Part shown: piece after piece, positions 6,579 through 47,770 of the stretch | How positions within the stretch are numbered: the stretch's first letter is position 1 | Layout: each line of letters starts with the position of its first letter | Origin: Caldivirga sp. MU80 | GTDB lineage: Archaea > Thermoproteota > Thermoprotei > Thermoproteales > Thermocladiaceae | Assembly: GCF_001663375.1 (NCBI RefSeq) | Contig: NZ_LCTF01000003.1 | Coordinates: 1-64,000, forward strand | Length of the DNA stretch: 64,000 bases | Direction: 5' to 3' | Notes under the pieces: model-generated | The model's database searches: none | Told to the model about the DNA's origin: nothing | The model's input: only the letters and a program-made list of their open reading frames with translations | Translations under genes and position numbers: made by a program

Positions 6579-6673
6579 ACTAAGTGTACCCGGTAAATCC
6601 CCCCTAAGTAGCATTGCAACGACAATATCAAGCCAATTCAGCAACCACTAAGTGTACCCGGTAAATCCCCCCT
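6579..6673. repeat. 27-bp direct repeat covering the KH-gene 3' end
   Basis: An identical 27-nt sequence occurs at 6579-6605 and at 6647-6673, 68 nt apart. The second copy contains the last codons and stop of the KH gene (GGFTGYT then stop, minus strand). The first copy repeats this coding tail and stop downstream, between the KH gene and gapN. The sequences between and beyond the copies do not match, so this is not a longer tandem duplication. Confidence 0.85.
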
Positions 6674-17170: not shown

Positions 17171-18189
17171 ATGAGGTATAGGGCCTTGGGTAAAACTGGC
17201 CTCACCGTGTCTGAGATTGGGCTTGGGGCTTGGTTCATAGGAGGCATGTACGGTGATGTGCCCCTTGATGATGCCAGGGCTATAATAAAGAGGGCACTGG
17301 ACCTGGGGGTGAACACCTTCGATACGGCTGACGTATATGGTAATGGCCTAAGTGAGAGGGTTTTGGGCGAGGAGTTAAGGGGTTATGACGTCAATGTCTT
17401 CACTAAGGTTAGTTACAACATTCACCAACACGAGGGGGTAAGGTTAATGACCCCCTTCCCGTCCCAGTGGGACGGGGTTTTCACTGCTGGGGTCTTGGGC
17501 GTTGCCCCCTCTTTGGGGGTTAATGGTTTTGTTCTTGGGGTGGTGGAAACAGTGGGGTATCGCCCCACCGGCTCATCTAACGTAGGAAACCCCCTCTCGG
17601 GGGCACCACCCCAAGCACTAAAACCCTAGCGGAGCTAGTCTTTATAAAGCTATCGCTAAATCCCCACATAGTGGGGCAACCCCGCCATAAATGGCGAGAC
17701 TTGCCCGTTGTCAACGTACTTAATGAAGGCCTAGCCGCCATTGAGGAGGGTTACGAGTCAATAATGTTCGTCTTCAACGCCCTGGAACAGGAGCCCGGTA
17801 GGGCATTGATACGTGCAGGTGTTGAAGGGGGTGTTGGATTAATAACCAGGGTTCCACATGCCTCAAACGTGCTGACGAATAACTTCACCCAAAGCTTCCC
17901 ACCCAGCGACCACAGGAGCTTGAGGAGGAGGGATTGGTTAATTAAGGCCAAGGCCATAGTTGATGAGTACGTTAAGCCCATCAGTGATCAACTGGGCATA
18001 ACCCTGAGCCAACTAGCCCTGAAATTCATCCTATCCTACCCAGTATCAACAGTGATAGTCACCGTGACGTCGGTTAAGGAGCTTGAGGAGTACGTTGAAG
18101 CGGCTGACGGCGGTTACCTAAGCCCAAGGGTTTTAGGGGACTTGGAGAGGCTTTACGATGAGTTAATTAGCATTAGGCTTAGCCAATAA
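17171..18189 (+). pseudogene. Aldo/keto reductase gene interrupted by a mini-insertion element
   Basis: The 5' part encodes a normal aldo/keto reductase start (RALGKTGLTVSEIGLGAWFIGG, then VNTFDTADVYGNGLSERVLGE, containing the catalytic Asp and Tyr) up to about NVFTKVSYNIHQHE. Family similarity then stops at about 17435, where a roughly 265-bp mobile-element sequence begins. It resumes at about 17709 with NVLNEGLAAIEEGYESIMFVFNALEQEP and runs to the normal C-terminus at 18189. Compared with the usual 280-320 residues, some 60-70 residues of the middle barrel, including the catalytic Lys/His region, are absent from both halves. The insertion therefore replaced, rather than just split, the coding sequence. 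A functional enzyme is very unlikely. Confidence 0.85.
17445..17706 (-). mobile_element. IS605-type mini-element without transposase (copy A)
   Basis: The ends match, in inverted orientation, those of the tnpB element at 46-47.6 kb. The right-end structure lies at 17449-17494: GACCCC pairs with GGGGTC around a perfect 8-bp hairpin CCCGTCCC / GGGACGGG. The left end lies near 17663-17706 and carries a CCAC-ATA-GTGG hairpin and ccgccataaatggcg. Between them are about 170 nt without any tnpB coding capacity. Boundaries are estimated from similarity. It sits inside the aldo/keto reductase gene. Confidence 0.75.
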
Positions 18190-22289: not shown

Positions 22290-22461
22290 GTTTGACCCCT
22301 TCCCCACCCTTTGAGGGCAAGGGTTCCCTGGGGGGTCTTGGAGGTTACCCGCCTTTAACGCGGGCTACTGAGGTATTGGGAAAGCCGGAGTTTTATAATT
22401 TTATAATCTATTGCTACGAACCCACTACGTGGGGTAACCCCACCCTAAAGGGCTAGGTTTG
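22290..22461 (-). mobile_element. IS605-type mini-element without transposase (copy B)
   Basis: A roughly 170-bp non-coding element between the xpd stop and the next gene's stop. The right-end structure at 22294-22337 has GACCCC pairing with GGGGTC around CCCT-TTG-AGGG. The left end has CCCAC-TAC-GTGGG (about 22431-22445) and gggctaggtttg. The layout and orientation match copy A and the tnpB element. It holds no coding sequence. The left boundary abuts the stop codon of the gene at 22466. Confidence 0.7.
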
Positions 22462-22465
22462 TTAT

Positions 22466-23026
22466 TCATTTTATCACGCCCAGGCATGCAGATGGAGTAA
22501 CCCTCACGCCTAGGCATTCATCATTAACCTCAACCATTAGTACATCACGCCTATTCTCAATGAGAAACCTAACCATGGCACTGGCCAACTTAAACCTACG
22601 ATTTAACTTAATTAGCCTCCTAAACAACTTAGCGTTAGCCATTAGTATAGGTGTGCTCAATCCCTTACCACCCCTAGCCGGCACAACTATGGGCCTATTA
22701 AAGGACCTTAACGCCCAAAGCAGCTTTACGTAGGTTCCTGGGCTTAGGTATGGTTGAGTACCCCTAATTAACATTATTGGTGGCGTTAGATAGGTTTCAC
22801 CGCACCTCGTTAATATGCCCCTTGATGATGAATACCATTGATCAATGTAGACAGTTAATGCAGCCGAGCCGAAGCCGTATATGCCCCTAAGCGGCCCACA
22901 AAAAACCACATTGTTGAAGCCAGCCTTGGCTAGGTTACGCTCAGCATGGTTAACTATAATTTTTAATAGTCCCTCATCCGCGATGGGGGGTATTATCATT
23001 AGGGCGGTGGGCATGTTAACGCTCAC
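22466..23026 (-). CDS. Putative MobA-like nucleotidyltransferase, divergent
   Basis: A 186-residue protein. The blocks CGPLRGIYGFGSAAL and LIRGTQPYLSPGTYVKLLWAL, followed by PIVVPARGGKGLSTPILM, have the order seen in molybdenum-cofactor guanylyl/cytidylyltransferases (PLxG, GDQPYLS, PV-type loop). The N-terminal LAGGxSxRMG nucleotide-binding motif is missing, however, and the usual GD before QPYLS is GT. The neighbours (a NifX-like protein overlapping by 11 nt and a divergent ModE-like regulator) suggest a metal-cofactor role. Assignment is tentative; it may be inactive as a transferase. Confidence 0.45.
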   Translation of the reverse strand: MSVNMPTALMIIPPIADEGLLKIIVNHAERNLAKAGFNNVVFCGPLRGIYGFGSAALTVYIDQWYSSSRGILTRCGETYLTPPIMLIRGTQPYLSPGTYVKLLWALRSFNRPIVVPARGGKGLSTPILMANAKLFRRLIKLNRRFKLASAMVRFLIENRRDVLMVEVNDECLGVRVTPSACLGVIK

Positions 23027-45967: not shown

Positions 45968-46211
45968 ACGTTGAATGAATGCGGAACTTAGTTAACATGA
46001 GGTAGGCTGATTCGCCATACGGTTAATAGGGGATGACAGGTTCATGATAATGGGTGGGCAAACCTTGCCATTCATGGCGGGGTTGCCCCACTATGTGGGT
46101 CTCAGGTGTTAGGTTTATTAGCCTTGGTTTTGTGCTTTGTTTGGTGCCTCGTGGGTGACACCCCCTGGTGAACACCACCAAGATGAGGAGCGGGGGCCGA
46201 CTTCCCCCGCA

Positions 46212-47561
46212 ATGCCGGGGGAGGGTGTCTACGAGGTTAAGTACACTAATGTGAGGACTAACGTTGTTAGGCTTCTGCCGAATGGCTACCAGGAGAGGAG
46301 GCTTAGGAGGCTTGCCGACGCCTGTGCTAGATTGTACAATGAGGTTAATTATGAGAGGAGGCAACAATTCTTTAATCACCAGCGTGTGGACTTCAGAGGA
46401 ACGTGGGGTAAGTACTATGGGAAGTATAAGGGTTTGCTTGGTGTTAATGCTTAAGCCGTAATGCAGAAGAGTAATGAGGCTTGGAACTCTTTTTTCACCC
46501 TCCTCAACATGAAGAGGGAGGGTAAACTATCACCCTTCATGAGGCGTGTTTCATCACCCGGCTACTGGAAGGATGAGGCAACTGGTAGGAGGAGGTTAAT
46601 ACTCGTTGTTAGGCAGGATAGGTATGTAGTGGATGAGCAGAGACGTGTTATTATCCTCAAGGACTTTAACCTTGAAGTGAAGTTCATAGGTAGGCTTAGG
46701 TGGTTTGGTAAGCAGGGTAGGCTTGAGATACACTACGATGAATCCAAAGGAGCATGGTATGCATGCATACCAGTGGAGGTTGGTGTTGAGGAGGCGAGGA
46801 CTGGAAGGAAAAGCAAGCACATTGTTAAGGGTGAGAGGAGGTTGATTCAAATTAAATCACCTAAAGGTAATAAGGCTGCATCCATCGACTTAGGCATTAA
46901 CAACCTAGCCAGCGTGGTTGTTGATGACGGCACTTGGTTACTCTACAAGGGCATAAGAGCAAAGGAGGATTACTTCTACATGCAGAGGTTGATTTCGAGG
47001 ATTCAATCCCTTAGGGACGCACTCAAGGGTAAATTGCTGAGTGACGCAATCGATGAGTTGAACCACGAAATGAGAAGACTGTACGGGAAGTTGAGGAGGA
47101 GGTTGTTGCACCTATACAGGAATTTTGCTTCTCACTTATTGATGCAACTCCACGAACTAGGAGTCTCAACAATATATCTGGGTTACCCATTCAATATCGC
47201 TCAGCAGAAGGGCAATAAGTTCACAGTGAACATGTGGACTTACAGAAAACTCATGGAGGCCATTGAGTTGAAGGCACAGGAGTACGGCATGAGGGTGTTT
47301 ATAGTCATCGAGTACAACACCTCAAGGTACTGCGCCTACCACAACGTCGAAGTAAAGAGACAACCAAGAGGAGTAGCCCACTGCCCTAAAGGACACAAGC
47401 TCCACTCAGACCTAAACGGAGCCTTAAACATAATGAAGAAGGCAACAGGCAAAACACCCTTAGTCATAAAGAAGCCACTCTCCTTCATCGTAGACCACAA
47501 CAAAGTAGCACCCGTAAAAAGGGGTGTAACCCCTGAGACCTCAGGGAACCCCCACCCTTAA
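46212..47561 (+). pseudogene. tnpB: tnpB RNA-guided nuclease gene with an in-frame stop
   Basis: TnpB proteins are RNA-guided DNA nucleases encoded by transposons. The N-terminal part (ATG 46212; VYEVKYTNVRTNVVRLLPNGYQERRL) runs to GLLGVNA, then a TAA at 46452-46454, then AVMQKSNEAWNSFF in the same frame. A single change from a Gln codon (CAA) to TAA would explain this. The rest is intact, with the RuvC acidic residues in ASIDLGINN, VIEYNTSR and HSDLNGALN and metal-type positions CAYH and CPKGH. Translation could resume at ATG 46461, but the missing N-terminus makes a normal enzyme doubtful. Confidence 0.82.
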
Positions 47562-47577
47562 GGGCGGGGAGGAGGTC
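47537..47577 (+). ncRNA. Right-end guide-RNA scaffold (omega/reRNA-like) structure
   Basis: GACCTC (47537-47542) can pair with GAGGTC (47572-47577) around an inner hairpin with CCC-TTAA-GGG and CCCC/GGGG. It overlaps the tnpB stop codon, as TnpB guide-RNA scaffolds do. In the mini-elements the outer pair is GACCCC/GGGGTC, a compensated change. In TnpB systems the guide lies just beyond this end, here starting about 47578. Confidence 0.55.
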
Positions 47578-47581
47578 AGAT

Positions 47582-47770
47582 ACCCTAACATGGTTAGTGG
47601 ATGCTGCATTAGATACCTTTAAAGGTAATAATTACTTCATTAGGGTAAACCAGCTGGGCAAGATGATCAGAGTTAGGGTACAGGCTAGGTTGGATTAGCA
47701 GGGTATTCTGAACGTTGAAGCCGGCTTAATGCTCACTGGTTACCTCATCTTGGATGGTGGGTTACACTAG
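47582..47770 (+). pseudogene. Short gene remnant of unknown family
   Basis: One frame reads TLTWLVDAALDTFKGNNYFIRVNQLGKMIRVRVQARLD, a stop, then QGILNVEAGLMLTGYLILDGGLH and a stop. There is no proper start, so it may be a fragment of a gene cut by the element next to it. I do not recognise the parent. It may also be chance. Confidence 0.25.

Follow-up and report, generated by a model that had tools for sequence, protein, structure and literature searches.

A right-end hairpin of IS605-type elements as the probable 3' part of an omega-RNA-type guide scaffold kept by many mini-elements of a Caldivirga-like archaeon

The window, the whole stretch of 64,000 nucleotides that was analysed, represents contig C49 of a Caldivirga-like host genome (2.26 Mb, 94.5% complete), which has Caldivirga MAGs among its close relatives. 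It possesses one tnpB-bearing IS605-type element and two mini-elements without tnpB, named copy A and copy B (Table 1). The right ends of all three were found where the preliminary description had placed them, the G of GACCTC being at 47537 and the C of GAGGTC at 47577 in the tnpB-bearing copy. The right boundary of this copy (47579) was set by analogy with the empty sites described below. The TGAT at its left end is presumed to be the target motif because in other copies TGAY sits 9-17 nt upstream of the left hairpin. The tnpB contains OrfB_IS605 and Cas12f1-like TNB domains, both in its downstream part. Uninterrupted relatives with 81-83% identity are present in the same genome (L002 and L004); the tnpB of L003 has one TAA, like that of the window. 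The guide of a TnpB system is about 16-20 nt long, and a guide is predicted directly after the right end. An Rfam search of the window at gathering threshold gave only tRNAs.

Copy A interrupts an aldo/keto-reductase-like gene. Comparison with uninterrupted genes revealed that the host-gene sequence picks up again at the TGAC of copy A. The insertion is common to the congener G004, with 93.6% identity over 1284 bp. About 65 codons found in the congeners are missing between the flanks in G000 and G004 alike, as if a deletion had accompanied or followed the insertion. For copy B, the empty site is present in G004. Two starts of its TATA-like motif lie at -39 and -31, counted from the scaffold. 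Elsewhere in the window, an exact 27-bp direct repeat, ACTAAGTGTACCCGGTAAATCCCCCCT, was observed at 6579-6605 and 6647-6673, either between annotated frames or at their margin.

Table 1. Positions of the element features identified in the window.
Feature	Position	Strand	Remark
tnpB-bearing IS605-type element, left end to GGTCAG	46049..47579	+	Ends similar to other copies
TGAT, presumed left target motif (TAM) of tnpB copy	46045..46048	+	14 nt upstream of left hairpin
tnpB	46137..47561	+	In-frame TAA at 46452-46454
Omega-RNA-type scaffold of tnpB copy	47506..47579	+	Covariance model match 47506-47578, 76.9 bits
Stem 1 of tnpB-copy scaffold	47509-47513/47522-47526	+	
Outer stem of tnpB-copy scaffold	47537-47542/47572-47577	+	GACCTC/GAGGTC
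Inner hairpin of tnpB-copy scaffold	47550-47557/47562-47569	+	Scaffold end is GGTCAG
Predicted guide of tnpB copy	47580..47599	+	Flank directly after right end; position inferred from empty-site boundaries
Copy A, long-type mini-element without tnpB	17447..17709	-	263 bp
TGAC, left target motif of copy A	17710..17713	-	GTCA on + strand
TATA-like box of copy A, CTTTATAAAG	17640..17650	-	26-27 nt upstream of predicted RNA 5' domain
5' structured domain of copy A	17534..17621	-	Outer stem with two hairpins
Omega-RNA-type scaffold of copy A	17448..17522	-	Covariance model match, 74.4 bits
Aldo/keto-reductase-like gene	17171..18189	+	Interrupted by copy A
Copy B, short-type mini-element without tnpB	22292..22472	-	181 bp
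TGAT, left target motif of copy B	22473..22476	-	ATCA on + strand
A+T-rich TATA-like stretch of copy B, GATTATAAAATTATAAAA	22391..22408	-	
Omega-RNA-type scaffold of copy B	22293..22367	-	Covariance model match, 76.3 bits

The preliminary description had compared the three right ends directly. The ends are real; however, opposite strands had been compared, since copies A and B are minus-strand elements. The hairpins are palindromic, and for this reason the stems survive the strand correction. Read in the direction of the element, the inner hairpins are CCCCACCC-TTAA-GGGCGGGG in the tnpB copy, CCCCGTCCC-ACT-GGGACGGG in copy A and CCTTGCCC-TCAAA-GGGTGGGG in copy B. In an alignment of right ends, the hairpin proved to form the 3' half of a longer conserved unit of 76 nt, composed of stem 1, a TAAC-containing joint, an outer stem GACCCC/GGGGTC, the inner hairpin and the end GGTCA.

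A covariance model of this unit gave 102 matches in the host genome at E up to 1, and the 90 with E below 0.005 were taken as the census. Among them, 21 adjoin tnpB, with the scaffold lying at the 3' end of the gene and running into the right end, while 69 stand alone. The genome-wide search proposed earlier thus extends to dozens of copies what the window had hinted, that mini-elements keep the scaffold without tnpB. Full-length tnpB frames of both scaffold clades are present in the host genome. The scaffold was also found in 23 of 60 genomes of relatives, including G004 (41 copies), G006 (57) and G012 (21). The excess of stand-alone copies is not general, because most of the copies examined in G006 are tnpB-linked. 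Right ends of a second class, most of them terminating in GAGGAGGCCAG, were observed at L043, L044, L046, L055, L056 and L059, and some ends of this class lie beside a more distant TnpB group (L026-L030).

Three copies by themselves prove little on compensatory change. In the relatives, the pair that distinguishes GACCTC/GAGGTC from GACCCC/GGGGTC is C-G in 39 copies, U-A in 28 and another combination in 2 (n=69), so the compensatory change claimed from the window is real. Among 77 distinct copies of the own genome, both sides were changed in 10 of 19 pairs, amounting to 51 cells where shuffles gave 21.1 +/- 3.2 and slid controls no more than 4, and five of five measures were above all 500 shuffles. 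The 69 distinct copies of other genomes gave 79 cells compared with 27.3 +/- 4.0 in shuffles, and pair 5-35 of stem 1 shows all six standard pair types among them; both alignments were fitted to the model structure and are biased in its favour. A tree-corrected count of same-branch co-changes gave 13 where 4.8 were expected (P = 2e-4). The signal was strongest in stem 1 (P = 3e-4), followed by the outer stem (P about 0.01), while for the inner hairpin P was 0.11 or 0.01 depending on the tree. No individual pair reached significance when pairs were examined one by one in a stricter G-test with a tree null, and the conclusion rests on the pooled co-change test. The excess over shuffles and slid controls, together with this test, supports the earlier proposal of selection on the folded form.

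Stem 1 is separated from the element end by over 45 nt, and nothing at the left end corresponds to it. Its pairing is 95.6% in stand-alone and 97.4% in tnpB-linked copies, and that of the outer stem 98.0% and 100%, respectively. Wobble polarity was considered as a guide to the folding strand and was uninformative (G-T 23, C-A 73). One form of pseudoknot was analysed, in which the TAAC-side loop would pair with the linker following GACCCC, and its complementarity did not exceed that of swapped controls (P = 0.11 and 0.77).

Most of the stand-alone copies have a left hairpin (CCTCGCCCTTTAGGGCGGGG / CAAGCCTCGCCCTTTAGGGCGGGG type), and the right hairpin was located by the covariance model. TGAC or TGAT is present at the left end in 51 of 65 stand-alone copies, mostly 9-17 nt before the left hairpin. 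Matching of joined element flanks to congener genomes revealed contiguous empty sites in same-genus genomes for eight copies (L099, L101, L102, L120, L125, L168, L182 and L192) in addition to copy B. The guide target directly adjoins TGAC or TGAT in the empty sites, and target duplication is absent. A recurrent one-base offset at these sites places the element end at GGTCAT, or at GGTCAG or GGTCAA in the other clade. Judged by their sequence, the stand-alone copies are small IS605-type mini-elements inserted directly 3' of TGAC/TGAT.

No match to Y1 TnpA (PF01797) was found in the host genome. A complete element with Y1 TnpA and TnpB and the same left and right ends is present in the congener G003 (L158), and G010 has a TnpA element with a similar left end (L157). 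An IS607-type serine recombinase was rejected as the mover; two resolvases are present, but the mini-elements carry Y1-type ends. At one end of G000:C71 (L062), an IS607-type serine TnpA is followed by a tnpB which is cut off by the contig end, and no scaffold match was found beside this pair.

In many mini-elements a TATA box precedes the predicted RNA by 26-32 nt. Outside the long type, 23 of 50 copies have a TATA-like motif with its start at -33 to -29 from the scaffold; about half of the short-type or degenerate copies have none at the expected place. In total, 32 motif starts fall in the interval from -33 to -29 where 0.87 were expected from the flanking density. The long type (n=19) has an extra domain before the scaffold, and in most of these copies the TATA-like motif lies 26-30 nt upstream of that domain. 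Since the archaeal TATA box is positioned about 25 nt upstream of the transcription start, the start would coincide with the 5' edge of the folded RNA in both types. Full-length tnpB genes of clade 2 have the extra domain as their 5' leader, and the 5' domain of copy A is the same as this leader. The domain covaries; its outer stem is 98.1% paired, with 28 cells changed on both sides compared with 8.0 +/- 3.9 in shuffles. Clade-2 leaders of this kind were seen at L005 (about 1410-1500), L006, L007, L008 and L010, where the domain before the tnpB start has a long outer stem, one or two inner hairpins and the motif GATGAGCCGGTGGGKCGAT. The leader domain had no convincing match in Rfam.

At sites common to G000 and G004, the flanks mostly differ by 3-5% and the scaffolds by up to 21%, while the adjacent flank is unchanged. 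In the orthologous pairs L181/L241, L166/L254 and L201/L257, the element interiors diverge far more than the flanks, and one orthologous pair differs by 9 nt in the spacing between TATA motif and scaffold. This pattern suggests that interiors may be exchanged or converted between copies while the guide stays unchanged.

Taken together, we consider it probable (roughly 0.6) that the right-end hairpin is the 3' part of an omega-RNA-type guide scaffold which doubles as transposon end, and that the stand-alone guides act in trans. The mini-elements would be, or would once have been, moved by a Y1 TnpA from outside, an enzyme that congeners have with the same ends. In many of them, the element's own TATA box would drive transcription beginning with the 5' edge of the RNA, and this RNA would end in a guide copied from the downstream flank. 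This RNA may be loaded into TnpB made by other copies, and cutting of alleles without the mini-element would then favour its retention. Supply of guides in trans, raised in the preliminary description, is plausible and better supported than it was from the window alone. A wider proposal is held more tentatively: guide RNA genes dispersed over the whole genome might share a few TnpB proteins in trans, each guarding its own insertion, with the 5' leader of the long type as a second, undescribed RNA part.

The same hairpins might have been kept only as single-stranded DNA ends for TnpA, with the RNA-like scaffold and the promoter as functionless leftovers of the parental element, as in mini-elements of the PATE type. 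Such elements with IS605-type ends are known (PMC3119063). The empty sites correspond to ordinary IS605-type insertion, and complete Y1 TnpA elements of the congeners share both ends. The inner hairpin resembles the left-end hairpin, which would fit a site recognised by TnpA. Stem 1 and the outer stem, however, do not occur at the left end and are nevertheless well paired and covarying in stand-alone copies, so that they fit an omega-RNA function, and long-type copies without a tnpB frame still keep the RNA-structured 5' leader along with the scaffold. We regard a purely DNA-level role as rather unlikely, even if the promoter and the scaffold could have been retained simply because the mini-elements descend from full-length copies. 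The preliminary description had offered the RNA scaffold and the DNA end read by TnpA as alternatives; the anatomy suggests both rather than one alone, and it is likely that each holds for different parts. TnpA would probably read the inner hairpin in its DNA form, and TnpB in its RNA form.

Gene conversion or recombination of hairpin blocks could carry paired changes together, and if the differences had spread mainly in this way the covariation would be only apparent. Identical inner hairpins, CCCGTCCCACTGGGACGGG, in several copies agree with such exchange, as do the shared sites of copy A and L166, where scaffolds differ far more than flanks. Double changes are nevertheless seen between distant genera too, as at pair 5-35, the co-changes exceed the tree-based expectation, and exchange leaves unexplained why every block is paired; as the main source of the signal it appears improbable. 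A role of the RNA other than TnpB guiding, such as L7Ae binding or regulation of nearby genes, was also considered; sRkB and sRkC of Pyrococcus abyssi, which are related to an OrfB end, bind L7Ae via K-turns (PMC3124441). The guide-plus-TGAY geometry of the empty sites is what TnpB requires, and we find this other role very improbable.

If the guide-scaffold reading is true, protein-free transposons would live off a shared RNA-guided nuclease, as a parasite of a parasite. They would also represent a natural intermediate step from transposons with one guide to systems with many guides, of which the CRISPR array is an example. Dozens of natural guides, together with many empty alleles in sister species, make this heat-loving archaeon suitable for tests of TnpB-driven retention of non-encoding elements. 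Stand-alone guide loci have been reported for the related IscB system too.

Several known systems resemble these elements in part, and no publication in the collection searched combines Caldivirga and TnpB. The palindrome-associated transposable elements (PATEs) of Haloquadratum walsbyi are short, lack a protein gene and have subterminal palindromes, a short 5' target motif and no target duplication, as here (PMC3119063). They are likewise related to IS605-type ends, outnumber full elements and were born by core deletion; their mobility was noted in a genome with broken TnpA genes. In the present elements a complete omega-RNA-type scaffold, and often a promoter as well, survives the core deletion, a feature that the consulted passages on PATEs do not mention.

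HgcC RNAs (RF00062) of hyperthermophilic archaea have a matching 3' end of the type CCCCGCCCUUUAGGGCGGGGAGGAGGUCAG, and in Thermococcus kodakarensis they are transcribed, some loci lying in transposase genes and others standing alone with their own start site (PMC4247193). With the HgcC model the present scaffolds score 26-38 bits (E 0.02 to 1e-5), below the Rfam gathering cut-off of 50. About 69 copies stand alone here, compared with 2 of 5 expressed HgcC loci in T. kodakarensis (PMC4247193). The P. abyssi RNAs sRkB and sRkC are promoter-driven stand-alone ncRNAs similar to an orphan OrfB (tnpB) 3' end, and a promoter precedes the mapped 5' end by 24 nt. They are two expressed loci of six and are likened here by description; element ends, empty sites and guides are absent from the available portion of the account (PMC3124441).

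In the omega-RNAs of ISDra2 (PMC8612924, PMC10097598) and of archaea (PMC12558985), which are transcribed in H. salinarum (PMC12558985), the scaffold overlaps the tnpB end and the right end, as here. They also share a terminal hairpin with a UUUA/UUAA-type loop and a flank-derived guide. The target motif is TTGAT in ISDra2 and TGAC/TGAT here, and the pseudoknot known from omega-RNAs is unsupported by the present scaffold alignment. In ISDra2, a predicted pairing near the 3' end gave way to a pseudoknot in the solved complex (PMC8612924, PMC10097598), so the outer stem here may differ from the form inside the protein. The parts are thus of known kinds, while their number and arrangement are unusual; the novelty lies in the scale, the architecture of promoter plus scaffold, the retained 5' leader domain and the evidence from empty sites.
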